From the NCBI GenBank assembly GCA_934230965.1, contig CAKQFW010000037.1, positions 1 to 13,388 on the forward strand: a stretch of 13,388 nucleotides of DNA, written 5' to 3'. The translations under genes were made by a program, and so were the position numbers. The stretch comes from an uncultured Prevotella sp. (GTDB lineage: Bacteria; Bacteroidota; Bacteroidia; Bacteroidales; Bacteroidaceae). Below are positions 46 through 13,388 of the stretch, one piece after another. The notes below the pieces were generated by a model, which ran no database searches, had not been told where the DNA came from, and worked only from the letters and a program-made list of their open reading frames with translations. Within the stretch, counting starts at the first letter, position 1. The number at the start of each line of letters is the position of its first letter.

Positions 46-210
46 ATGAAAAAGACATATATCGCCCCCAAAACGCTGTCAGTAAAGGTAGAAACCTTGA
101 ACCCCATCGCCGCATCAGTACAGTCCGTCAAGATTGACACCACAGGCGAATACAATGGCGAGTTCTACTCGAAGAAGCACTACGACGTGTGGGCCGACGA
201 CGAAGAGTAA
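46..210 (+). CDS. Small hypothetical protein, 54 aa
   Basis: A short open frame starts at ATG 46 and ends at TAA 208-210, encoding 54 residues. It begins MKKTYIAPKTLSVKVETL, passes through a small hydrophobic stretch (NPIAAS) and ends in an acidic tail (VWADDEE). I do not recognise a function. The pattern of KKxYxxP start, middle Ala/Ser segment and acidic Trp-containing end resembles many tiny uncharacterised ORFs in Prevotella and Bacteroides genomes, which is recollection and not a search result. There is no clear signal peptide or transmembrane helix. It lies 25 bp upstream of the GH32 start on the same strand, so co-transcription is likely. The codons look natural and the stop-to-start spacing is tight, which supports it being real. 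The A-rich leader ahead of the ATG (31-45) is typical of Bacteroidota starts. It might be a small exported or modified peptide; this is unproven. Confidence 0.6.
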   Translation: MKKTYIAPKTLSVKVETLNPIAASVQSVKIDTTGEYNGEFYSKKHYDVWADDEE

Positions 211-235
211 ATCATTAAAAACAACATCACTAACA

Positions 236-1996
236 ATGCATAACAAAACCCTCTGTATGCTGGCCATGTCCAGCCTTATGCTGACCGCTCCCGCCACCTT
301 ACAGGCACAACAGGCAGCAGCCAACGTCACAGCAATGACAGCCGACAAGCTGTTTCTCAGTAGCAACCATTGCGTCTATCGCATTACCCCGGGCAAGCAC
401 TTCTTGATGCTGCCTGTGCAAGAGAGCGCCGAGATGTGCAACGTGAAGCTGGTGGCCGATAACGAACAGGTGCGCGCCTTCAACATACGTCTGGCCGTAA
501 ACCACATCGACTATCTCGTGCCCCTCGATCTCTCTGCCTATCAAAACGGCGAGCAGCTGGCACTTGATATTCATGTAAACGGCAGCTACCGCAACGATGG
601 CGACTTGCGCGCCTTCACGTGCTGGAAGAACATGACCTATACCGACACCCCCGACCTGACTAACACCGAGCACTACCGCCCCACCTATCACCACACGCCT
701 GCCTACGGCTGGATGAACGACCCCAACGGTATGTTCTACAAAGATGGTGAGTGGCACCTCTACTTCCAGCACAACCCCTTCGGGTCGCAATGGGAGAACA
801 TGACATGGGGACACTCGGTATCATCTGACCTCATGCACTGGACCTACGAGGGCGATGCCATCCTGCCCGACGCATGGGGCACCGTGTTCTCAGGTTCGGC
901 CGTGGTAGATAAGAACAATACAGCGGGTTTTGGCGCTGGCGCCATCGTGGCCATGTATACATCGGCTGGCGAGAACCAGACACAGAGCTTGGCCTACAGC
1001 ACCGACAACGGCAAGACGTTTAAGATATATGAGGGCAACCCCATTATCACAAGCAACGTGCCTGACTTCCGCGACCCCCACATGTTCTGGAACGAGCAGC
1101 TGGGCAAGTGGAGCCTCATCTTGGCTGCCGGACAAGAGATGCAAATCTACTCATCGGCCGACCTCAAGACATGGCAGTATGAAAGTTCGTTTGGTCAGGG
1201 ATATGGCAGCCACGCTGGTGTATGGGAGTGCCCCGACCTGATGAAGCTGCCCGTGCGCGGCACCGACAAAGAAAAGTGGCTGCTGATATGCAACATCAAC
1301 CCTGGCGGCCCCTTCGGCGGCTCGGCCACACAATACTTTGTAGGCGACTTTGACGGATGCAAGTTTACCTGTGAGAGCAAGCCCGAGGTTACAAAATGGA
1401 TGGACTATGGCAAAGACCACTACGCCACCGTAACCTTTGACAACGCCCCCGACGGCCGACACGTGGCCATGGCATGGATGAGCAACTGGCAGTATGCTAA
1501 CCAGGTGCCCACACTGCAGTATCGCTCGGCTAACAGCATTGCCCGCGACCTCGACCTGTACGAATATGAGGGCGAGACCTACTGCGGTGCAACACCTTCG
1601 CCCGAGGTTACTGCCGCCCGCGCTAAGAAGGGCAGCAAAACACTGAGCAAGGCCTGCGAGATGGTGGTAACACTGAAGGGCAGCACCACACTGACACTGA
1701 GCAACGACAAGGGCGAGCAGGTGGTGATGACCTACGACGAAAAGGCCAAGACCTTTAGCATGGATCGCACAAAGAGCGGACGCACCGACTTCAGCACCGA
1801 GTTTGCTGCCGTTACCACAGCACCCGTTCATGGCAAGCTGTCGCAGCTGCGCCTGTTTATCGACAGCAGCAGCATCGAAGCCATCGACGCCGAGGGCCGC
1901 ATGGCCATGACCAACCTGGTGTTCCCCACCACACCTTATAATAAGGTTACGGTGAAGGGTCGCGCAAAATATATTGTTTATAACCTAACGAAATAA
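236..1996 (+). CDS. Secreted GH32 fructan beta-fructosidase (levanase/inulinase type)
   Basis: This 586-residue enzyme should hydrolyse beta-2,6 or beta-2,1 fructosyl bonds in fructan oligosaccharides, releasing fructose by the retaining GH32 mechanism. A signal peptide covers residues 1-24, with cleavage predicted after LQA; there is no lipobox, so it is probably periplasmic. Residues about 30-140 form an extra N-terminal beta domain of the kind found before GH32 modules in Bacteroidota (probably DUF4980). The five-bladed propeller follows, with WMNDPNG at 159-165 (nucleophile Asp162), FSGSAV at 218-223, FRDP at 278-281 (stabilising Asp280) and WECPD at 330-334 (acid/base Glu331). A beta-sandwich GH32 C-terminal domain spans about 470-580. 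I chose ATG 236 because it gives a clean signal peptide; the longer in-frame start at 134 lies inside the upstream small ORF and adds a non-signal-like leader. The permease follows 42 bp downstream. Exo- versus endo-action and linkage preference cannot be read from sequence. Confidence 0.95.
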   Translation: MHNKTLCMLAMSSLMLTAPATLQAQQAAANVTAMTADKLFLSSNHCVYRITPGKHFLMLPVQESAEMCNVKLVADNEQVRAFNIRLAVNHIDYLVPLDLSAYQNGEQLALDIHVNGSYRNDGDLRAFTCWKNMTYTDTPDLTNTEHYRPTYHHTPAYGWMNDPNGMFYKDGEWHLYFQHNPFGSQWENMTWGHSVSSDLMHWTYEGDAILPDAWGTVFSGSAVVDKNNTAGFGAGAIVAMYTSAGENQTQSLAYSTDNGKTFKIYEGNPIITSNVPDFRDPHMFWNEQLGKWSLILAAGQEMQIYSSADLKTWQYESSFGQGYGSHAGVWECPDLMKLPVRGTDKEKWLLICNINPGGPFGGSATQYFVGDFDGCKFTCESKPEVTKWMDYGKDHYATVTFDNAPDGRHVAMAWMSNWQYANQVPTLQYRSANSIARDLDLYEYEGETYCGATPSPEVTAARAKKGSKTLSKACEMVVTLKGSTTLTLSNDKGEQVVMTYDEKAKTFSMDRTKSGRTDFSTEFAAVTTAPVHGKLSQLRLFIDSSSIEAIDAEGRMAMTNLVFPTTPYNKVTVKGRAKYIVYNLTK

Positions 1997-2038: not shown

Positions 2039-3250
2039 ATGAATAATTCAAGCAACTCGAAAAAGACGCTCATCCCCGTGATGATAGCATTCTTCACCAT
2101 GGGCTTTGTCGACCTCGTCGGCTCAGTGTCAAACAATATGCAGGAAGACTTCGGACTATCTGACTCGGCCGCCAACTTCTTCCCTTCGCTCGTGTTCTTT
2201 TGGTTCCTCATCTTCTCTGTGCCCACGGGCATGCTCATGAACAAGATAGGACGTAAGAAAACGGTGCTCATCTCTATCATCATCACCACGCTGGCAGTGT
2301 TTCTGCCCCTGTTTGATGGCTTCATGCCTACCAAGGAGAGCCAACTGTGGCTGATGTATATCTCGTTCTCGCTGCTGGGTATAGGCAACGCCGTGATGCA
2401 AACCAGCATCAACCCTCTGGTAACGATGATTGTGAAGGGACACTTGGCCTCAACACTTACCTTCGGACAGTTTGTAAAGGCTATCGCCTCGTTCATAGCT
2501 CCGCTTATCGCATCATGGGGCGCCACCACCACAGCACCGCTGCTGGGCCTGAGCTGGCGCATCTTGTTCTTGCTGTTCTTTGTGGTGGGCATGATTGCTA
2601 CGCTGTCGCTGGCCTTCACACGCATTGAAGAAGAGCCCATCGAGGGCAAGGCATCGGGCTTTGCCGACTGCCTGAAGATGCTGGGCTCACCCCTCATCCT
2701 GCTCTCGTTCATCGGCATCATGTGCCACGTGGGCATCGATGTGGGCACCAACGCTGTGGCTCCGAAAATTCTGTTCGAACGCTTGGGCACTGACGGCGAC
2801 ACGCTGAGTAAGTTTGAATATGCCACCTCGCTCTATTTTGCCTTCCGTACCTTGGGATGCTTCACAGGCTCTATCATCATGCGCAAACTGAACATTCGCA
2901 CCTTCTTCGCTATCATCGTGGTAATGATGGGTCTGGCTATGGTGGGCTTTGTCTTCGGCACCGAGCAGTGGGAGCTGTGGGCTGCCATCGCGCTGGTGGG
3001 CTACGGCAACTCAAACGTGTTCTCTATCGTCTTCTCACAGGCTATGCTGTCAGAACCCGAGAAGAAGAACGAGGTGAGCGGACTGATGATTATGGGCCTC
3101 TTCGGTGGCACCGTCTTCCCCTTGCTCATGGGCTTTGCCAGCGATGCCGCTAAGGCTGCCGGTGCCATGCACCCACAGGTGTGGGCCGCCGTGGTGATGA
3201 GCGCAGGCGTAGTGTATCTGCTTAGCTATATTACTAAGGTTAAGCAATAG
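2039..3250 (+). CDS. MFS sugar permease (FHS-like, probable fructose/H+ symporter)
   Basis: A 403-residue inner-membrane transporter with about twelve predicted hydrophobic helices (roughly residues 11-33, 46-66, 75-95, 104-128, 135-160, 167-190, 215-235, 262-280, 287-307, 311-335, 345-365, 377-398) and a hydrophilic central loop near 190-212. The segment MGFVDLVGS in helix 1 resembles the fucose/glucose-galactose (FHS) branch of the major facilitator superfamily. The loop after helix 2, GMLMNKIGRKK (64-74), matches the MFS signature motif between helices 2 and 3. The B. thetaiotaomicron levan locus has a comparable permease (BT1758) assigned to fructose uptake, so fructose or short fructan products are the likely substrates. 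The gene sits 42 bp after the GH32 gene and upstream of a fructokinase, fitting the steps release, uptake and phosphorylation. The start at 2039 has no Shine-Dalgarno sequence, as is normal for the phylum. Confidence 0.9.
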   Translation: MNNSSNSKKTLIPVMIAFFTMGFVDLVGSVSNNMQEDFGLSDSAANFFPSLVFFWFLIFSVPTGMLMNKIGRKKTVLISIIITTLAVFLPLFDGFMPTKESQLWLMYISFSLLGIGNAVMQTSINPLVTMIVKGHLASTLTFGQFVKAIASFIAPLIASWGATTTAPLLGLSWRILFLLFFVVGMIATLSLAFTRIEEEPIEGKASGFADCLKMLGSPLILLSFIGIMCHVGIDVGTNAVAPKILFERLGTDGDTLSKFEYATSLYFAFRTLGCFTGSIIMRKLNIRTFFAIIVVMMGLAMVGFVFGTEQWELWAAIALVGYGNSNVFSIVFSQAMLSEPEKKNEVSGLMIMGLFGGTVFPLLMGFASDAAKAAGAMHPQVWAAVVMSAGVVYLLSYITKVKQ

Positions 3251-3640: not shown

Positions 3641-4525
3641 ATGAATTACGTAGTAGGTCTGGGCGAGGCACTATGGGATGTGCTGCCCGAAGGAAAAAAG
3701 TTGGGTGGAGCACCCGCCAACTTCGCGTTTCATGCCGGACAATTTGGTCTTAACTCGATAGCCGTAAGCGCCTTGGGCGAAGACAAGCTGGCCGAAGAAA
3801 CCATTCAGCAGTTGGAAGAAAAGAAGTTGCAGTATTGCATGCCACGTGTGCCCTACCCCACAGGCACCGTGCAGGTAGAACTTGATGGCGAGGGTATTCC
3901 TACCTACGACATTAAAGAAAACGTGGCGTGGGACAACATTCCGTTTACCGACGAGGTGAAGGCCGTGGCCGAGAACACACGCGCCGTGTGCTGGGGCTCG
4001 CTGGCACAGCGCAACGTGGTGAGCCGCGAGAGCATATACAAGTTTCTCGACGCTACGCCCGAGGGCTGCATGAAGATTTTCGACATCAACCTGCGCCAAA
4101 ACTTCTACACCAAAGAGGTGATATGCGAGAGCATGAAGCGCTGCAACGTGTTGAAGATTAACGACGAAGAGTTGGTGCTCATTGGCCGCATGTTTGGCTA
4201 TCCTGGCCTTGATATGGAGAACAAGTGCTGGCTTATCTTGGGCAAGTATAACCTCGACATGCTGGTGCTGACCTGTGGCACCAACGGCAGCTATGTGTTT
4301 ACGCCAGGCGAGATGTCGTTCCAGCCCACACCTAAGGTAGAGGTAGCCGACACCGTAGGCGCTGGCGACTCGTTTACAGGCACCTTCTGCGCCTCTATTC
4401 TGGGCGGCATGTCCGTGGCCGATGCTCACCGCCTGGCCGTACAGGTAAGCGCATACGTGTGCACACAGAACGGCGCTATGCCCGTGCTGCCCAGCGCTGT
4501 AAAGAGCGGCAAGTGGGCTAAGTAA
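3641..4525 (+). CDS. PfkB-family fructokinase
   Basis: A 294-residue cytoplasmic sugar kinase of the ribokinase/PfkB family, expected to phosphorylate fructose with ATP, feeding glycolysis. Visible signatures are GGAPANFA at 22-29 (N-terminal PfkB sugar-binding motif), DINLRQ at 148-153, KINDEE at 172-177, and the C-terminal PfkB signature DTVGAGDSFTG at 237-247 with catalytic base Asp243 in the GAGD anion hole. Length is normal for bacterial fructokinases and close to the B. thetaiotaomicron levan-locus kinase BT1757. Start ATG 3641 gives MNYVVGLGEALWD, the usual family beginning. It is on the same strand as the permease and GH32 genes, but a 390-bp array of palindromic repeats intervenes, so it may have its own promoter or be expressed at a different level. 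Other PfkB sugar kinases are possible by family alone; the locus makes fructose the best substrate. Confidence 0.93.
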   Translation: MNYVVGLGEALWDVLPEGKKLGGAPANFAFHAGQFGLNSIAVSALGEDKLAEETIQQLEEKKLQYCMPRVPYPTGTVQVELDGEGIPTYDIKENVAWDNIPFTDEVKAVAENTRAVCWGSLAQRNVVSRESIYKFLDATPEGCMKIFDINLRQNFYTKEVICESMKRCNVLKINDEELVLIGRMFGYPGLDMENKCWLILGKYNLDMLVLTCGTNGSYVFTPGEMSFQPTPKVEVADTVGAGDSFTGTFCASILGGMSVADAHRLAVQVSAYVCTQNGAMPVLPSAVKSGKWAK

Positions 4526-4872: not shown

Positions 4873-7341
4873 TTATTTTACAACCACCTTAAACACTTGA
4901 ACGTGGCCCGTGGCCGTATCAGTGAGGCGCACAATATTCAAGCCACAGGTGTCAAGATTTACCTGTCCTTTACCGCTCACGGCCTTCAACGTTTTGAGAC
5001 AACGACCAGTAGTGTCATATACCTGTATGTGCGCGGTAGAGCCTGCTGTGTCGTAGCTGATGGCCTGCTGGCCACCCTCTACCTTCCACGCTGCCAGAGC
5101 CTCTGCACCAGTGATGGAGGCCGAGATATTAGGATTTAGCACATAGGCTTTCAGCATACGCATATTGACAGGACCATCGCTAAACATAGAAGCTTTCACA
5201 CCATTAACATCGGTAGGAAAGACGCGCACCGAAGCAGCATAAGAGTCGTTTACAAAGATGTCGATAAACGAGTGGTCAACATACACAGTGAGCTTTGCCG
5301 TTTGTCCCTCATTTAGCTTCTTTGGTAATTGTGCGGTGTATACGCCACCAAATGTTCCGTCTTGCACAATGCGGTCAATATTACTAAGGTCGAGGTCAAT
5401 GGAATTGGCCGATGGCGAATAGGTAATGCGTACCTTGCGATTGCCGTTGCCTAAAACGGTAAAGCCCACAGCACTCTTACCCACGGTAAACTCGGCACGC
5501 AGTTCTAATGCACGACCTTCAACAGGCGACAAATCTTCTTCGCCATTCAGCGTAAAGGCATCACGAGTAACAGCCGTTGACGAGCGCATGCCTACCAAGC
5601 CACTGAATGGTTTTTGAAGTAACGTGCCATTTGCCGAAAGGCTTATCTCGCGCGGCAAACTAAAGGCGTGCGAATAGCCCAATTTATAGGTTTCGTTCAT
5701 GCCCAACTTATCGGGCACCACGCCCAGCATAAGGGTCTTACCATCGTGTTCAAAGATAGTGGGCGACAAGAGACCGTATCCATCGCGCGAGAAGCCATCA
5801 AACTCTATCGTCTTAGGTGCGATATTGTCGGGTGTGAACGTGCCATCGGCATTAATAGAACCTATCCAGTAAAGGGTGCGTGTGCCCTTGTCGGTAGAAA
5901 GCGGTGTGCAGGTAAACATCCACTTGTTGCCAAAGCGGGTAACGTTAGGCATCTCCCAGTAGTTGCCATCGCGCCCAGCCACCTGCCCCTGGAAGAACAG
6001 CTTGCCATCGTTTGACCATGTGCGCGAACCCTTGTCGTAGACGTGCAACGTAGCGCAGCCCACACCATTTTTGGTGCAACCCACAATCATATAATAATTG
6101 TCGTTGTTTTTGAACACGAAACAATCGCGGAAGTCGCCACCCATACCCGACGGACAGCCATTGATAACGGGATTGTTATTAACCTTGTTCCATGAGCGCA
6201 ATTGGTCATCGGCAGGTACAGCCTGTGATATCATGGCATGGCCATAGTCTACTCCGGTATAGAAAATATTGGGCTTGCCACCCGTGAGCACATCGTCGGT
6301 GAAGACACAGCCCGACCAGCAACCCTTCTGGTCATACCACGTAACATCATCGCCAGGGCTGATGGCCGTAGGCATTTCTTTCCAGTCGTACAGATTATCG
6401 CTCACAATATGTCCCCAATGCATATGGGTGAGTTGTAAGCCATTAGGATTCTTTTGGAAAAACACGTGATACTGGCCATTATAGTAAACGGCTCCGTGCG
6501 ACTCGTTGGTCCAGTTGCCCGAAGGCATGCCATGAAAAGCTGGGCGGCAGATGTCGGCAGCATAGCGGCTGGCCGAATAGAAGAGGTTAGGAGCGTCGTT
6601 GCACGTTTCGTTTACCACATCTGTGCGCACACCCTCGTAAACATCAAAGTCGTCGATAAGGCCATTAAAGGTATTGAGATGGCACATATCGTCTTTCAAC
6701 AGAACATACGATTTACCTACAAACAGCTCGTTAGCGGTAGAGGTAAACGAGTTGCCACACTTCACCGAACCCATCTCTACGCCGTTGTTATACAGAGTAG
6801 CCCGTTTGGTCTGTCCGTCAATGACAGCTACAAGGTGGTTCCACTGATAACGTTTCAGCTTTTCAGTCGCCTTGATATTAAGCTGAAAGCCATTGCTAAA
6901 ACAGGTAAACTGATAAGAGCCACGCGAGCCAAGCTGAAAGGCAAAGCCTTTTCCATTGGTGTTATCGGGCTGGTTATTGTCGTTAATGCGCATCGACCCT
7001 ACCATGGTGGTAAACCACTCGCCATTTTCGTCAAGGCGCATGAGGGGATAACTCTCTGGTGCCACCCACAGCGAGAAGGTGAGCTGATTTTTTCCGTTAA
7101 GCGTAGACAGATTGATTAACCCGTTGGCATACGACGAATAGCCATCAAGGCGCCAAGCCTCTCCTTTCACTCCAGCCACGTTATAAGGCGAGAGTGCTGT
7201 GTTTACAGCAAGCGTGCGTCCTGAAACAGTTTCTTTCAGCGAGCCATTACTTGGTGTCATTGGTAAACTTACCATTTGCGCTGATAGGGTCATTGGAACA
7301 ATCAGTGCAAGTGTAGAAAGAAATGATTTAAAATGTAACAT
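4873..7341 (-). CDS. LamG-GH32 protein with T9SS C-terminal sorting domain; altered nucleophile
   Basis: An 822-residue secreted protein. Residues 1-21 are a signal peptide (cleavage after LSA) with no lipobox. Residues about 30-240 form a LamG/concanavalin-like carbohydrate-binding domain. A GH32 propeller spans about 265-585, followed by a GH32-type beta-sandwich (about 590-735, with SFIDIFVND). Residues about 740-822 resemble a T9SS type A sorting tail (VYDTTGRCLKTL, then LNIVRLTD, ending FKVVVK), suggesting export through the outer membrane and surface attachment or release. The catalytic motifs are divergent: WTNESHG at 277-283 replaces WMNDPNG, putting Glu280 at the nucleophile position; FRDC at 404-407 replaces FRDP but keeps Asp406; YWEMPN at 461-466 replaces WECPD but keeps Glu463. 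It could be a fructan hydrolase with shifted geometry, a different specificity, or a binding protein. An intrinsic terminator separates it from the upstream DUF4960 gene, so it probably has its own promoter in 7342-7450. Confidence 0.9.
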   Translation of the reverse strand: MLHFKSFLSTLALIVPMTLSAQMVSLPMTPSNGSLKETVSGRTLAVNTALSPYNVAGVKGEAWRLDGYSSYANGLINLSTLNGKNQLTFSLWVAPESYPLMRLDENGEWFTTMVGSMRINDNNQPDNTNGKGFAFQLGSRGSYQFTCFSNGFQLNIKATEKLKRYQWNHLVAVIDGQTKRATLYNNGVEMGSVKCGNSFTSTANELFVGKSYVLLKDDMCHLNTFNGLIDDFDVYEGVRTDVVNETCNDAPNLFYSASRYAADICRPAFHGMPSGNWTNESHGAVYYNGQYHVFFQKNPNGLQLTHMHWGHIVSDNLYDWKEMPTAISPGDDVTWYDQKGCWSGCVFTDDVLTGGKPNIFYTGVDYGHAMISQAVPADDQLRSWNKVNNNPVINGCPSGMGGDFRDCFVFKNNDNYYMIVGCTKNGVGCATLHVYDKGSRTWSNDGKLFFQGQVAGRDGNYWEMPNVTRFGNKWMFTCTPLSTDKGTRTLYWIGSINADGTFTPDNIAPKTIEFDGFSRDGYGLLSPTIFEHDGKTLMLGVVPDKLGMNETYKLGYSHAFSLPREISLSANGTLLQKPFSGLVGMRSSTAVTRDAFTLNGEEDLSPVEGRALELRAEFTVGKSAVGFTVLGNGNRKVRITYSPSANSIDLDLSNIDRIVQDGTFGGVYTAQLPKKLNEGQTAKLTVYVDHSFIDIFVNDSYAASVRVFPTDVNGVKASMFSDGPVNMRMLKAYVLNPNISASITGAEALAAWKVEGGQQAISYDTAGSTAHIQVYDTTGRCLKTLKAVSGKGQVNLDTCGLNIVRLTDTATGHVQVFKVVVK

Positions 7342-7527: not shown

Positions 7528-8724
7528 TTAATAGTCGGTCTGTGCAGCAAGATAGTCGATACTATTCTTGGTCAACAGCTCGATATTCGACTGATACTGG
7601 TTGGTGGCAGAGTTCTGGTTAAACTCGTAAGCGCTCAAGCCAATGCACAGCACACTACCTTTGAAGGTGTCGGTGGGTTTAAACTCGATAATGCCACCAC
7701 AACAATAGTCGGTTACATGTCCCCAGGTAGAAAGCACTGTTGACGAAGTCTTTGCCTCAAAAGCAGCAACTACGTTGGGGCCATCAGCGGGGCGGAAGCC
7801 ATACGAGTTGAGGTCCCACATACAGTTGTGGTCTTCGCGCATACCAGGACCTTCAAGCGGGAACGACTCGTGGTCGTAACCATTCACAGGATCGTTAGCA
7901 GGCAGCACTTCAAGACCCGCAAAAATGGCATGTGAACGATGGTCATACTTTGGGTCGCAGTTTGAACCTATAATGGCATTGGTGGTCCAGATATCGGTGC
8001 CCATGCCACCCTCGCCTGATGAAAAGAGGCCAGGAGCATACTTGCTCTCAATACGACCCAGAGCGGTGATAAGCTGCGTAGCGTGCTTGGTGAGCAACAG
8101 GTTGCCACCAGCCTTAACATAGGTTGTAATTTTCTCAACCACATCTGAGGCAATAACTGCTGAAGGCAAGTTTCTTACACCAGCGTTGATGCCTACGCGG
8201 TCAATCTGTATCCACAGTGCTGCATACTTCTTAATATCGAGAGCGGGAAGTGTTGACGGGGTAAACACGTCGCCATCAGCGCCATAGGTAGAGACGAACC
8301 AAGTTTTAGCGGCCAACTCGTCGTCATCAAGCTCGCTATCATTCTCTGAAGGCAACAGCATAGCCACCTTTAATCCTGCCAGCGGACCTACCTTTGCCGA
8401 CTCGCCCTCTGACACGTTTCCGTTTTCATAAAGGGCCTTTACGGTGTACATAAGGTCGGTGTTAGCAGGCTGGCGCTTAGCCACAAAGCTGCTTTCAAGG
8501 CCCAACTGCTCAAGCAGAATGTTGTTACGATAAATGTTTACACCCGCAAGCCCTGTGGCTGTGGGCATGGTCCAATTAAGAGTTACGGTGCGGCCGTCGA
8601 CTGAAGCACTGAGATTGCTCACCTTGGCCGACTGTACAGCCTGAGGAATGTCAACGTCTGAACAAGCAGCGAGACCCAGCAAAGCCACCGCGCCCATCAT
8701 CAGATTGAATATATACTTTTTCAT
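7528..8724 (-). CDS. DUF4960-family surface lipoprotein (SusE-position fructan-binding protein)
   Basis: A 398-residue predicted lipoprotein. The N-terminus MKKYIFNLMMGAVALLGLAAC has a lipobox with acylated Cys21, followed by SDVD; acidic residues soon after the Cys are typical of Bacteroidota surface lipoproteins. Residues about 30-113 look like a fibronectin type III/Ig-like domain (VSNLSASVDG, LNWTMP, GVNIYRNN). Residues about 114-398 match the DUF4960 type, a flavodoxin/glutamine-amidotransferase-like fold (LKVAMLLP, AGGNLLLTKHATQL), with no catalytic triad that I can identify. It lies 14 bp after the SusD-like gene and before a terminator, the position held by BT1761, the surface glycan-binding protein of the B. 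thetaiotaomicron levan locus. The likely role is holding levan or inulin at the cell surface for SusCD. Assignment to the family is from remembered similarity; ligand specificity is inferred from context. Confidence 0.82.
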   Translation of the reverse strand: MKKYIFNLMMGAVALLGLAACSDVDIPQAVQSAKVSNLSASVDGRTVTLNWTMPTATGLAGVNIYRNNILLEQLGLESSFVAKRQPANTDLMYTVKALYENGNVSEGESAKVGPLAGLKVAMLLPSENDSELDDDELAAKTWFVSTYGADGDVFTPSTLPALDIKKYAALWIQIDRVGINAGVRNLPSAVIASDVVEKITTYVKAGGNLLLTKHATQLITALGRIESKYAPGLFSSGEGGMGTDIWTTNAIIGSNCDPKYDHRSHAIFAGLEVLPANDPVNGYDHESFPLEGPGMREDHNCMWDLNSYGFRPADGPNVVAAFEAKTSSTVLSTWGHVTDYCCGGIIEFKPTDTFKGSVLCIGLSAYEFNQNSATNQYQSNIELLTKNSIDYLAAQTDY

Positions 8725-8738
8725 TGTTTACAGTTTAT

Positions 8739-10405
8739 TTATTTGTAAAGACCATTTGAATTGTTTACCTCCTGATACGGCACAGGAAGGAAGATTTCGT
8801 CTTCAGTAATTGAGTTGCCAGCATAATAGCTGTGATAACGTTGCTCGCTCTGCATATAGGCGTTGACCGTGGGTACCACCGTGTTCCAGCGTACGAGGTC
8901 GAACCAGCGGTTACCCTCCATAGCCAACTCTAAGCGACGCTCCATGCGCACAGCCTTGCGGGCATACTCTTGTGTCCAGCCAGCAGCAGGATATAAGCCC
9001 ACATTATAGTTAGCATTAAAGGGGTCGAGATCTTGCGGTGTATAGTCGCCATCAATGCTGCGCTGTGCCTTTGTGCGCACCTTGTTAATAAGGTTGCGTG
9101 CCTCGTCAAGTTGTTGGTTCTGCTCAATAAGAGCCTCGGCCTTCAGCAACACGATGTCAGCGTAACGAATAAGGCAGAAGTTAAGCGCCGAAGCACCCCA
9201 AGGCCAATCTTTTACCATTTCGGGCGATGAGGGGTCGATAAGACCTTTCTTTCCTGAATACTCGCCATACACATCAATAGCACGACACCACTTTTCGTTA
9301 TAGGTATGACCACGGAAAGGCATGCCAAGACGACCTACGGTAAAGTCGAGACGTGGATCAACATTGCCCTCATAGTTTCCATTACCACTCACCGTAGTTT
9401 TCACATAGTGTTCAGAACCATCAAGATAAGGCAGTCCGTTCTCGTCGGTAGCAAAGGCATCAACCAGGTTTTGGCTACCCAGGAAGAAGTCGTCGCCTGT
9501 GCCATAGTAGGCACCATCTGAATAAGTAGTGTTCAGCAGGTTCGACCAGTTGATGTGTGCATTGTTGTTAGCGGTAGAAAACTGAATAGCCATGATTGAC
9601 TCTTTCTGGTTATTAAACGCTATCTTCGACATGTCGCCATAATTGTTATAGAAGTCGTACTTGTGCGAATTAATAACATAGTCGGCATAGGTCACTACGT
9701 CGGCCCAGTCAGAGGTAAAGGCACACACCTTTGCCATCAATGCCGCAGCAACATACTTGCCGAAGCGTCCCACCTGTGCCTGTTCTTCAGGCAGCACAGC
9801 ATAGGCATCGGTGAGGTCGGCCTTTATAAACTGGAAAATCTGGTCACGCGAATACTCGTCGCAGCGTTTGCCATTAGGGTCTTCGTTCTCAGTAAAGTAA
9901 GGTATCTGCTTGAAGATACGAATGAGGTCGAAGTAGAAGTAAGCACGCAGCAGCTTCAGCTCGCCCAGATAGGTGTTTTATTGCCAATGTTGCTGTTTTC
10001 AATAGCGTTCATAGCTTTGTGCACACGCGAGATAGCATAATAGTTGTTACGCCACTTGTTTAACGCCACCTCGTTATCGCTTGTTACGTTCGACACCTCT
10101 AACTGGTGAATGTATTGTTCCATGGTAATGTCGCCACCACCCTTCAAGGCATCGTCAGAACGAACATCAAACACCCAGTTAGTGATAGGGCCAGCAAACG
10201 ACTCGTTATTGCCGAAGAAGTGAGCCTCAAGACCAGCATAAGCCGATGACATCAGGCCCTCGATAGAAGAGTCGTCAAGTTGCTCTTCTGTGAAGGTGCC
10301 CGTGGGCTTCAGGTCAAGGAAGTCGTTGCACGAGGTCATGGCCATTGTAGAGGCAGCCATAACGGTGGCAACTGCTATATGTTTGAAATTGATATATGTT
10401 TTCAT
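8739..10405 (-). pseudogene. SusD-like glycan-binding lipoprotein, frameshifted
   Basis: The SusD/RagB-family outer-membrane lipoprotein that caps the SusC-like channel and binds incoming glycan. The N-terminal part (start 10405) has a lipoprotein signal ending MTSC at Cys26 and the typical CNDFLDLKPTG. After Lys143 the frame runs into a TGA at 9956-9958. The next frame continues exactly where a SusD should (YLGELKLLRAYFYFDLIRIF) and goes on to TAA at 8739-8741. It includes RYADIVLLKAEALIE in a TPR-like helix, ERRLELAMEGNRWFDLVRW and the C-terminal LPVPYQEV motif. One extra A in the minus-strand A-run (T-run 9976-9979 on plus) would restore a 555-residue protein reading NKNTYLGEL. The downstream part has internal ATGs (for example 9797), but a protein starting there would lack the lipid anchor. 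This is either a true disruption or a one-base sequencing or assembly error. It sits 30 bp after the SusC stop and 14 bp before the DUF4960 gene. Confidence 0.9.
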
Positions 10406-10435
10406 TTCTTTGTCTTTAATTATAGTTGTGATAAA

Positions 10436-13388
10436 TCAGAACGTCAGGTTCACGCCCAGCGTAAAGGTGTGTGAACGTGGATAAGGGCCGCCATCATAAC
10501 GTGCGCCATAGGCGCCGAGAGGCAATTCGGGGTCGAGACCCGAATAGTCGGTAATGGTAAAGACGTTCTCCATCTGTCCGTAAACGTTCAGGGCCGAGGC
10601 ACCAATACTCTTGAGCCACTTGGTGGGCACATCGTAAGAAAGCTTGATAAACTTCATCTTCATATACGAGCCATCCTCAACAAAGTAGGTCGACATGCGT
10701 GTTTCGTTGTTGTTGTCGGCCAACGTCAGTGCGGGTATTGATGATGAGGTGTTGGTAGGTGTCCAAGCGTTCAGCACGCTCTTGCCACGGTTGGTAGAGT
10801 TTCCGCCATACGACATAAAGTCGAGCTGACGCTTTGTGCCATTATAGATATCGAAACCAAACTCGCCAGCAAAGAAGGTACTCAGGGTGAGACGTTTCCA
10901 TGTAACGCTCAGGTTCAAGCCCATTGAGAAGTCGGGGTTAGGATCACCAATGATGCACTGGTCTTTCTCGTTGACAATGCCATTGCCATCAAGGTCGCGA
11001 TATTTAAGGCGTCCTACGCCCTTACCCTGCTGGGTAGCATGGTTGGCCACCTCGGTTTCGTTCTGGAAGATGCCGTCGACGACATATCCATAATAAACAC
11101 CCATAGGCTGGCCCTTCATAAGACGCACGTCGCCACCTTCAGAGTTTACAAAGTCGTTCAGTTTCACTACCTTGTTCTTATATTGAGAGAGGTTCAGGTT
11201 TCCGTTCCATGACCAGTCGCCATAGCGAGGCGAGTTGTAATTGATGGTAACTTCCCAACCCGTGTTCTTCATGTCGCCAGTGTTCATCCATTTTGAGGCG
11301 TTCTCACCAGCCACAGACAGCACGGGGGGCACGGTAAGCATGTCTTTGGTCTTCTTCCAATAATAGTCGAAGCTAACGCTCAGCGAGTTACTAAGCATAA
11401 AGAGGTCGAAACCAAGGTTGGTCTGAGTGGTGGTTTCCCACTTCAGGTTTCGGTTTCCAGTGCTACCCACCTTAATACCACTCACAATGCCCGTATTGGT
11501 ACCATTGAGGTCGTACGAGCCATTGCCTGTGTCATACACATAGGTAGAATAAGAAGCATAGTTAGACAGCATCTGCGAGGCACCGTTCTGTCCCCAGGCT
11601 GCACGTATCTTTAGGTCGCTCACCACAGGGTTCTTTTTCCAGAATTTCTCTTCAGAGAGGCGCCATGCAGCAGAGAAAGCAGGGAATACGCCCGAGTTTT
11701 GGTCATTGGCCAAACGTGAGGTAGCATCGCGACGCAAGGTTGCCGAGAAGAGGTAGCGGTCGGCATAGTTGTAGTCGAGTTTGCCAAAGAGCGAGAACAA
11801 GGCCCACTCTTGGGTGCCGCCACCATTGGTCTGCGTGCCTTCGCCCGACCCTATCTGCATATAATTTTTGTCCTCGAAAGCATAGTTATTGCGCCATGCT
11901 GAGATGTCTTGAAATTTATACTTGATAGCCTCAGAACCAGCCAGCACGTTAAAGTGGTGCGAGGCAAGATCAAGCTGATAGTTGGCAGTGTTGGTCCACG
12001 TCCAGGTTTCGCCCTGTCCGTAAGCCCGGCTCATTGAGGTAACATTTGATGCCACCAACTTGCGGTTCAACGCCTTATTAAAATACTGTGTATGGTCAAG
12101 ACCAAAGTTTGATTTCAGGGTCAGGCCCTTAACAGGCTTAACCTCTAAATAAGCGTTACCAAAGATACGAAGGCTCTCGTTCGAATTGTCGCGAGCGTTA
12201 TAAAGGCTCTGCACGGGGTTTGCAATATCCGACTTCAGCACATCAACTGGGTTTGTAAACGTGCCATCCTCATTACGCACGGTAAGGCCAGGGTGCTGGC
12301 GCATGGCGGTGTAAGGAATACCACGGTCGTTCTGTGCATCGCAACCACGATTGAACCATTTGGCCACCATCAGGTTTTCGCCCACACTCACATACTTTGA
12401 AATGTCGTAGGTAGAATTAAGACGAGCAGAGTAACGACGATAGAATGTATAGTCGACCAATCCGTCCTGGTCAATATAGTTGGCCGAGAAGAGCATAGAG
12501 CCACGTTTGCCGCTGTTTGCCACACTTGCTGTAAGGTTCTGTGTCCATGCCGAACTATACACCTCGTCTTGCCAGTCGGTATTAGGCAAGCCACTTACCA
12601 TTTGTGGAGTGTCGCCATTGCCATAGAAGGGATGCGAGGGCTTAACACCAGCGTTCTTGGCGGCGGTCCAGTAAGCCTGTCCCCACTCGGCGGTGTTTAA
12701 CATATCAAACGTCTTGGCCACCGTTTGCAAGCTGGCGGCATAGTTTATGTTTACAGTAAGTTTCTCGCCCTTGCCACGCTTAGTGGTAACAATAATAACA
12801 CCATTGGCAGCACGCGAACCATATATTGAGGCCGAAGAGGCATCTTTCAGCACCTGTATCGACTCGATATCAGCGGGGTTGATAGAGTTCATATTCTCTG
12901 TCGTAGCAATACCGTCGACAATAAGCAGCGGCGCGGTGCCATTGACAGAACTCATACCACGCACACGAATAGAAGCACCGTCGCCACCAGGAGCAGCATC
13001 GGTCACCACCTGCACGCCAGCCAGCTTACCTTGCATAGAGTTAAGGATGTTGGCATCCGATTGTGATACAGGTTCCTTCATGTTCATCACGCTAACAGCG
13101 CCCGTAAGGTCGGCCTTACGCTGCACTTGGTAACCTGTTACAACAACCTCATTCAACATTTCTGAACTATCTTCAAGCACCACCTTTATATGCTGTCCAG
13201 CCTTTACCTCTTTGTTTTTACATCCGATGTAAGAGATAACGAGAGTTTCGCCTGGTTTTGCCTTGAGGGCAAAATTGCCATCAATGTCGGTCACTGTGCC
13301 CGTTGTAGCCGACCCTTTCACCTTTACCGTGGCACCAATAATTGGTTCGCCATGATTGTCAGTGACGGTACCGCCTATGCCGTTAGTC
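10436..13388 (-). CDS. SusC-like TonB-dependent outer-membrane transporter (5' end beyond window)
   Basis: At least 983 residues of a SusC/RagA-family transporter that imports oligosaccharides, here probably fructans, using TonB energy. The frame stays open to the right edge, so the start and signal peptide are missing; GTG 13321 is an internal Val and not the start. Residues about 4-80 are the carboxypeptidase-regulatory-like N-terminal extension (IGGTVTDNHGEPIIGATVKV). The SusC-type linker NEVVVTGYQ follows at about 79-87, which may act as the TonB-interacting segment. The plug domain spans about 93-205, with LAGVQVV, IRVRGMSS, PLLIVDGI, LKDASSASIYGSRAANGVIIVTTK. The remainder is the 22-strand barrel, ending in the aromatic LGVNLTF. 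It is the first visible gene of the SusC-SusD-DUF4960 operon, and its promoter lies outside the window. No frameshift is seen. The fructan substrate is inferred from neighbours. Confidence 0.95.
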   Translation of the reverse strand, partial: TNGIGGTVTDNHGEPIIGATVKVKGSATTGTVTDIDGNFALKAKPGETLVISYIGCKNKEVKAGQHIKVVLEDSSEMLNEVVVTGYQVQRKADLTGAVSVMNMKEPVSQSDANILNSMQGKLAGVQVVTDAAPGGDGASIRVRGMSSVNGTAPLLIVDGIATTENMNSINPADIESIQVLKDASSASIYGSRAANGVIIVTTKRGKGEKLTVNINYAASLQTVAKTFDMLNTAEWGQAYWTAAKNAGVKPSHPFYGNGDTPQMVSGLPNTDWQDEVYSSAWTQNLTASVANSGKRGSMLFSANYIDQDGLVDYTFYRRYSARLNSTYDISKYVSVGENLMVAKWFNRGCDAQNDRGIPYTAMRQHPGLTVRNEDGTFTNPVDVLKSDIANPVQSLYNARDNSNESLRIFGNAYLEVKPVKGLTLKSNFGLDHTQYFNKALNRKLVASNVTSMSRAYGQGETWTWTNTANYQLDLASHHFNVLAGSEAIKYKFQDISAWRNNYAFEDKNYMQIGSGEGTQTNGGGTQEWALFSLFGKLDYNYADRYLFSATLRRDATSRLANDQNSGVFPAFSAAWRLSEEKFWKKNPVVSDLKIRAAWGQNGASQMLSNYASYSTYVYDTGNGSYDLNGTNTGIVSGIKVGSTGNRNLKWETTTQTNLGFDLFMLSNSLSVSFDYYWKKTKDMLTVPPVLSVAGENASKWMNTGDMKNTGWEVTINYNSPRYGDWSWNGNLNLSQYKNKVVKLNDFVNSEGGDVRLMKGQPMGVYYGYVVDGIFQNETEVANHATQQGKGVGRLKYRDLDGNGIVNEKDQCIIGDPNPDFSMGLNLSVTWKRLTLSTFFAGEFGFDIYNGTKRQLDFMSYGGNSTNRGKSVLNAWTPTNTSSSIPALTLADNNNETRMSTYFVEDGSYMKMKFIKLSYDVPTKWLKSIGASALNVYGQMENVFTITDYSGLDPELPLGAYGARYDGGPYPRSHTFTLGVNLTF

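Follow-up and report, generated by a model that had tools for sequence, protein, structure and literature searches.

A protein encoded in a 13,388-nucleotide stretch of DNA from an uncultured Prevotella sp. (GenBank assembly GCA_934230965.1, contig CAKQFW010000037.1; hereafter, the window) combines a LamG domain with a glycoside hydrolase family 32 (GH32) region in which the catalytic nucleophile, usually an aspartate, is replaced by Glu280. The Asp-to-Glu change in this protein, P0001, is real, old and common to hundreds of relatives. P0001 is very likely an active GH32 enzyme of one kind or another with Glu as the nucleophile, and the specific reading that we favour, with a probability of about 0.5, is that of an endo-acting fructanase with a preference for beta-2,1 linkages. 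This reading is built on residue states, phylogeny, a predicted fold and gene context. A Glu nucleophile is itself already known from the fungal endo-inulinase INU2; what is new is its bacterial and archaeal variant.

Conservation of Glu280

Glu280 lies over the Asp of the W-x-N-D-P-N-G motif, gap-free, in five HMMER alignments. A search of 5.8 billion proteins returned 1305 matches, and conservation was read among the 120 listed: together with the query (P0001-P0121), 121/121 proteins share WTNE[S/T]HG, RDC and WEMP, and a clade with an NES-type motif in place of NDP, as envisaged in the initial annotation of this DNA, thus exists. In a wider set of 359 aligned GH32 sequences, comprising GTDB loci and further proteins with identical open reading frames (ORFs) counted once, column 280 holds Glu in 299, Asp in 52 and a gap in eight; the aligned sets were gathered by similarity, and such counts describe the clade rather than a random sample. 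Among the 298 Glu-type sequences with residues aligned at these sites, all keep the stabilizing Asp and 297 the acid/base Glu, in place of which the last has Asp. RDC is local to the close relatives, more distant Glu-type loci having mostly RDP or RDQ. Glu-type genes were found in 13/399 genomes in a sampled census of one family (E <= 1e-80; residue states read) and in 2/296 genomes, one being the centre genome, in a phylum census (E <= 1e-60), where two other matches were Asp-type.

Conservation in 121/121 and 299/359 sequences rules out sequencing error or chance as the source of Glu280, and another Asp as a substitute nucleophile is likewise ruled out, since no acidic column proved special to the Glu rows when a sample of 46 was compared with 24 Asp rows. 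The initial annotation, which had described the gap-free substitution, the accompanying WTNESHG and RDC, the retention of Asp406 and Glu463 and the improbability of a sequencing error, is upheld on all these points; the Glu463 codon (5953-5955) lies outside the range it gave (6121..6513).

His replaces the Arg of RDP in 22 Glu-type proteins (P0156, P0158, P0198-P0200, P0203-P0211, P0217, P0218, P0223, P0227, P0230, P0233, P0236, P0240); changes of this Arg in the exo-inulinase KcINU1 are reported to leave no detectable activity (PMC7545266). A Glu-type paralogue at L090:1450-3588 (-) has WDMP, with Asp for the acid/base Glu, and a WEMP paralogue (L085) resides in the same genome (G507).

Residues changing with the nucleophile

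Further columns distinguish the two types. Column 282 is His or Tyr and column 297 Lys or Arg in 299/299 Glu rows, the latter state occurring in none of the Asp rows with a letter there, and column 464 is Met in 298/298 Glu rows with letters and in no Asp row with a letter. Column 304 holds Leu, Met, Lys or Gln in the 299 Glu rows and Trp in 49/52 Asp rows (three gapped), and column 541 holds Ile (287), Val (10), Met (1) or a gap (1) in Glu rows and Trp (46) or a gap (6) in Asp rows.

Beyond Bacteroidota, NE occurs in two proteins from Catenovulum plasmids and in three from haloarchaea (two Haloterrigena, one Natrinema); Natronorubrum, Haloarcula, Priestia and one Streptomyces protein compared alongside have ND. 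One haloarchaeal protein has 1579 relatives, and all 120 listed, many of them named Paenibacillus, carry NE, His282, Leu464 and Ile541 and keep RD and the acid/base Glu. These proteins share with P0001 the LamG-GH32 architecture, NE, His282 and a hydrophobic residue at 464, but differ from it in having Leu464 and not Met, mostly His after Gln296 (His 109, Arg 1) and Phe (85) or Trp (35) at 304. The notion that all pocket sites change as one was therefore narrowed, Lys297 and the lost aromatic 304 not being features of this branch. As far as these sequences go, the core of the change consists of Glu280, His/Tyr282, hydrophobic464 and hydrophobic541, and Lys/Arg297 together with the lost aromatic 304 marks the branch holding Bacteroidota.

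Of the two readings offered in the initial annotation, that of a distinct subfamily is borne out by the Glu clade, whereas a catalytically dead fructan-binding protein built on the GH32 scaffold is very improbable. A dead GH32 can indeed be a binder, as the D42A variant of the endo-levanase BT1760 still binds levan within the utilisome despite its lack of activity (PMC7618045), but the acid/base and stabilizing residues are kept both across Bacteroidota and in the Paenibacillus/haloarchaeal set, and the solved endo-inulinase INU2 has a Glu nucleophile.

Two relatives are unusual in other respects. A 1404-residue protein from a Haloterrigena turkmenica plasmid (L152:13407-17621) carries both WMNEPHG and WMNDPNG, i.e. 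Glu-type and Asp-type GH32 domains together. P0237, from the caddisfly Micropterna sequax, is a bacterial-looking Glu-type GH32 in an insect record and may reflect gene transfer or contamination; a survey of animal GH32 reported Asp at the nucleophile site in 93.4% of sequences (PMC11311677).

Independent origin in a fungal endo-inulinase

Mardo et al. describe the GH32 nucleophile as an aspartate ‘in the most cases’ and that of INU2 as Glu43, within YWMNEPNG, with EVPDM around the proton donor (PMC5245892); WMNEPNG was confirmed in the sequence of PDB 3RWK (Aspergillus ficuum INU2). The idea that a Glu nucleophile is unprecedented in GH32 was dropped for this reason, and the assertion of the initial annotation that GH32 nucleophiles are Asp does not hold: INU2 is an accepted GH32 with Glu, and an Asp nucleophile is not a defining feature of the family. 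Characterized fructanases with the same NES motif, which the annotation had also considered, are nearly exemplified by INU2, which has the Glu nucleophile but NEP, not NES.

Trees were built from the GH32 part only, with one representative per identity cluster, by quick searches with Shimodaira-Hasegawa-like approximate likelihood ratio test (SH-aLRT) values; columns 276-284, 294-306, 403-408 and 461-467 were masked and columns 480 and 541 left unmasked. A single branch separates the 29 Bacteroidota Glu rows from all others (SH-aLRT 98). With the Paenibacillus/haloarchaeal rows added, 10 randomly chosen Asp rows removed and no BT1760-like rows included, all 46 Glu rows again fall on one side of a branch (SH-aLRT 92, not starred). 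In a 75-row tree to which INU2 and four Asp-type PDB chains were added in their HMMER-aligned parts, INU2 grouped with 21 Asp rows (SH-aLRT 100; the long branches of AtcwINV1 and 1uyp flagged). Forcing INU2 into the Glu rows cost 97 log-likelihood units (quick tree; p-AU 7.5e-5), and common descent of P0001-type Glu rows with INU2 was rejected by this approximately unbiased (AU) test. Since INU2 sits among Asp enzymes and its grouping with the Glu rows is rejected, the Glu nucleophile, on these trees, arose at least twice in GH32.

In both origins, the Cys after the acid/base became Val, Met or Leu and the Trp at column 541 a hydrophobic aliphatic residue, P0001 thus sharing the INU2-type states at the nucleophile, 464 and 541. 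In INU2, the 15 columns that tell Glu from Asp rows apart are Glu-like in four cases (280, 464, 480, 541), Asp-like in six and neither in five; the four include the three most clear-cut columns (280, 464, 541). Like P0001, INU2 (PDB 3RWK/3SC7) has a Glu nucleophile in a W-x-N-E motif, a hydrophobic residue for the Cys after the acid/base and Val at column 541; unlike P0001, it is fungal and of independent origin, keeps NEPNG and the loop-1 Trp and, its GH32 region beginning at about residue 29 of the PDB chain, has no N-terminal LamG there.

Predicted function of the changed pocket

In a beta-2,1 fructan, the chain is attached to O1 of the fructose in subsite -1; in a beta-2,6 fructan, to O6. 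On this chemistry, changes next to the nucleophile would suit endo-inulinases and loss of Trp304 would suit endo-levanases. The BT1760-like proteins fit this logic, with Cys464 in 30/30, Trp541 in 30/30, Asp aligned in 29/30 (the exception, BT_L136, being misaligned or broken there) and Trp at 304 in 0/30.

The pocket bottom of BT1760 is reported to comprise Asp41, Thr104 and Cys222 (PMC6560043), of which Asp41 corresponds to column 280 and Cys222 to column 464. In docked AtcwINV1-sucrose, the distance between the fructose O1' and the nucleophile is 2.7 A, and O6' is bound by W47, which corresponds to column 304 (PMC3360783). Two residues that in BT1760 belong to the -1 pocket floor are thus changed together in P0001, Asp to Glu and Cys464 to Met, with a third probable pocket change at Trp541; the same three sites were altered independently in INU2. 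In P0001, these changes would make room for a -1 fructose bearing a beta-2,1 chain on O1. The loss of the loop-1 Trp, a contact of O6, should also allow O6 substitution. A proposed match of column 541 to W334 of KcINU1 was dropped, W334 belonging to a WQ(Y) motif a few residues later.

P0001 would, then, act as a retaining GH32 with Glu280 as nucleophile in place of Asp, Asp406 as transition-state stabilizer and Glu463 as acid/base. It is probably secreted to the cell surface, beside a SusC-SusD-DUF4960 fructan-uptake complex, where it would cut chains internally; the pieces would be imported by the complex and passed on to a canonical GH32 and a fructokinase-like kinase. An active enzyme other than a plain endo-hydrolase, for instance one releasing inulobiose or inulotriose from chain ends or transferring fructosyl units, is unlikely: a place in an outer-membrane uptake operon fits depolymerization before import, and no evidence points to transfer specifically.

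A more general scheme, which we advance tentatively, is a two-switch linkage code. The first switch, from Asp/Cys464/Trp541 to Glu/[Met,Leu,Val]/[Ile,Val], would free space around O1 of the -1 fructose and would have evolved at least twice, yielding endo-inulinases; the second, loss of the loop-1 Trp304, would do the same around O6, as endo-levanases would illustrate. Having both switches, the Bacteroidota Glu clade might then consist of endo-fructanases for branched beta-2,1/2,6 fructans in which Glu is a fully competent nucleophile.

Gene context and comparison with endo-levanases

The outer-membrane levan set of Bacteroides thetaiotaomicron comprises SusC, SusD, the surface glycan-binding protein (SGBP) BT1761 and the endo-levanase BT1760 (PMC7618045). 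In the window, SusC-SusD-DUF4960 is followed by the Glu-type GH32 gene, in the slot held elsewhere by BT1760-like endo-levanases. A DUF4960 homologue lies directly upstream of the Glu-type gene in 33/41 loci (L001-L041), with one Asp-type GH32 between them in five and a contig end in three. Taken from the other side, 94 DUF4960 matches in 399 genomes (next gene <=2.5 kb away on the same strand; fragments and double domains included) are followed by a BT1760-like gene in 62 cases, a Glu-type gene in 10 (7 genomes), both in 0 and neither in 22. The Pfam scores of DUF4960 are 21-71 bits beside Glu-type genes and 75-369 beside BT1760-like ones, with 72 for the window copy, and the binding partner has therefore diverged too. 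The two classes of DUF4960, high-scoring and low-scoring, possibly differ in fructan specificity. P0010, a metagenome protein of 1143 residues, has DUF4960 inside the LamG of a Glu-type GH32, fusing both neighbours by domain insertion or as a chimera.

BT1760-like endo-levanases resemble P0001 in their slot and in having no loop-1 Trp, but keep Asp, Cys and Trp541 and carry a C-terminal domain from another Pfam family, PF16346, which is absent from P0001 at E <= 1; weak PF16346 matches elsewhere in the Glu clade occur in 1/42 members of set A2 (E 9e-4) and one gene in genome G385 (E 4e-4, below cut-off). BT1760 is described as a surface lipoprotein (PMC7618045), whereas no lipobox Cys was seen by eye in the signal peptide region of P0001. 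Glu-type and BT1760-like genes occur at separate places in 6/399 genomes, which suggests different substrates; the seventh listed overlap, G385, is the weak PF16346 match inside its own Glu-type gene.

It is possible, albeit doubtful, that P0001 is instead an active Glu-nucleophile endo-levanase that cuts beta-2,6 linkages and plays the role of BT1760 in this locus. The shared slot, the levan SusC 5t3r as the best PDB match of the window SusC, levan binding by DUF4960 and the absence of the loop-1 Trp from both groups speak for it. Yet the BT1760-like enzymes cut levan internally with Asp, Cys and Trp541 in place, so that the Glu set of changes is not needed for this activity, and the genomes with both types suggest a division of substrates.

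Several observations nevertheless weigh against a beta-2,1-preferring endo-fructanase. In addition to occupying an endo-levanase slot, the Glu-type gene accompanies a SusC that scores 669 bits against 5t3r versus 552 for the next distinct SusC, 8aa4, and a DUF4960 domain closest to Prevotella proteins is reported to have an apparent levan affinity of 10-20 nM, its binding of inulin being some ten times weaker (PMC10076258); levan therefore stays a possible substrate. In six loci (L085-L090) from a part of the Glu clade further removed from P0001, SusD, not DUF4960, lies directly upstream. INU2 shares the Glu state in only 4/15 separating columns and retains the Asn of NEPNG as well as the loop-1 Trp, and the convergence at 280, 464 and 541, suggestive as it is, comes from this one fungal sequence. 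Finally, the W79L (W47 equivalent, column 304) and C239A (column 464) variants of KcINU1 are reported to have no detectable activity (PMC7545266), so that an Asp enzyme does not tolerate just any residue in these columns.

Organization of the gene cluster

Features of the window are collected in Table 1. P0001 fits the GH32 fold of a five-bladed propeller and beta-sandwich, both by Pfam and in a predicted model. The match of its tail to a type IX secretion system (T9SS) signal is below the curated cut-off, and Por_Secre_tail (PF18962) matches at E <= 0.01 in 12/42 members of set A2. The frame break in the SusD homologue is either real or an assembly error. Rfam gave zero matches in the window at the gathering threshold, and a viral structure library returned viral GH32 and LamG proteins, none informative.

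Table 1. Genes, domains and key residues of the window.
Feature	Positions	Strand	Basis or remark
Canonical GH32 with DUF4980 (WMNDPNG, RDP, WECP)	134..1996	+	Pfam, alignment
Major facilitator superfamily (MFS) transporter	2039..3250	+	Pfam
PfkB-family fructokinase-like kinase	3641..4525	+	Profile matches
LamG-GH32 protein P0001, putative Glu nucleophile	4873..7341	-	Single intact ORF, 822 residues plus stop
T9SS-like C-terminal tail, residues 763-822	4876..5055	-	TIGR04183, 14.6 bits (curated cut-off 23)
GH32 C-terminal beta-sandwich (GH32C), residues 598-723	5173..5550	-	PF08244, E 7.7e-16
GH32 five-bladed propeller (GH32N), residues 270-578	5608..6534	-	PF00251, E 9.8e-51; predicted model
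Val541 in place of Trp of G-W-M motif (Asp-type GH32)	5719..5721	-	Alignment
Glu463, predicted acid/base, and Met464 (canonical Cys)	5950..5955	-	Alignment; E463 codon 5953-5955
Asp406, predicted transition-state stabilizer	6124..6126	-	Alignment
Leu304 in place of loop-1 Trp (AtcwINV1 W47)	6430..6432	-	Alignment
Lys297 (canonical Tyr/His/Trp after Gln296)	6451..6453	-	Alignment
Motif W277-T-N-E280-S-H282-G283	6493..6513	-	E280 codon 6502-6504
LamG domain, residues 78-240	6622..7110	-	PF13385, E 5.8e-18
Probable signal peptide, residues 1-21	7279..7341	-	Judged by eye from sequence
DUF4960 surface glycan-binding protein, BT1761-like	7528..8724	-	PF16324, 72.4 bits; DUF4960 chains 8aa2/8a9y, E 4e-8
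SusD homologue	8739..10435	-	ORF list, Pfam; two open frames that overlap, 8739-9977 and 9956-10435
SusC homologue, extends past window end	10436..13387	-	TIGR04056; closest PDB sequence 5t3r, also present in levan-utilisome entry 8a9y

Implications

Searches of the Creative Commons (CC)-licensed full-text literature found no description of a Glu-type bacterial GH32 clade, no paper on GH32 pseudoenzymes and none on GH32 inulinases of haloarchaea, and a search there targeted at natural Asp-to-Glu nucleophile variants turned up nothing relevant. The inulin enzymes of Bacteroides ovatus are given in reviews as BACOVA_04502/04503 (PMC10688802, PMC8002723). The Glu change occurs in hundreds of proteins of Bacteroidota, Paenibacillus and haloarchaea, which a naive residue check would call inactive and which databases name beta-fructofuranosidases or sucrose-6-phosphate hydrolases. 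If endo-acting, they would supply a missing chain-cutting step in the use of inulin or branched fructans, including that by Prevotella-like bacteria of the gut, and the repeated switch from Asp to Glu, if true, would allow one kind of endo-acting GH32 to be recognized by a simple check of residues.
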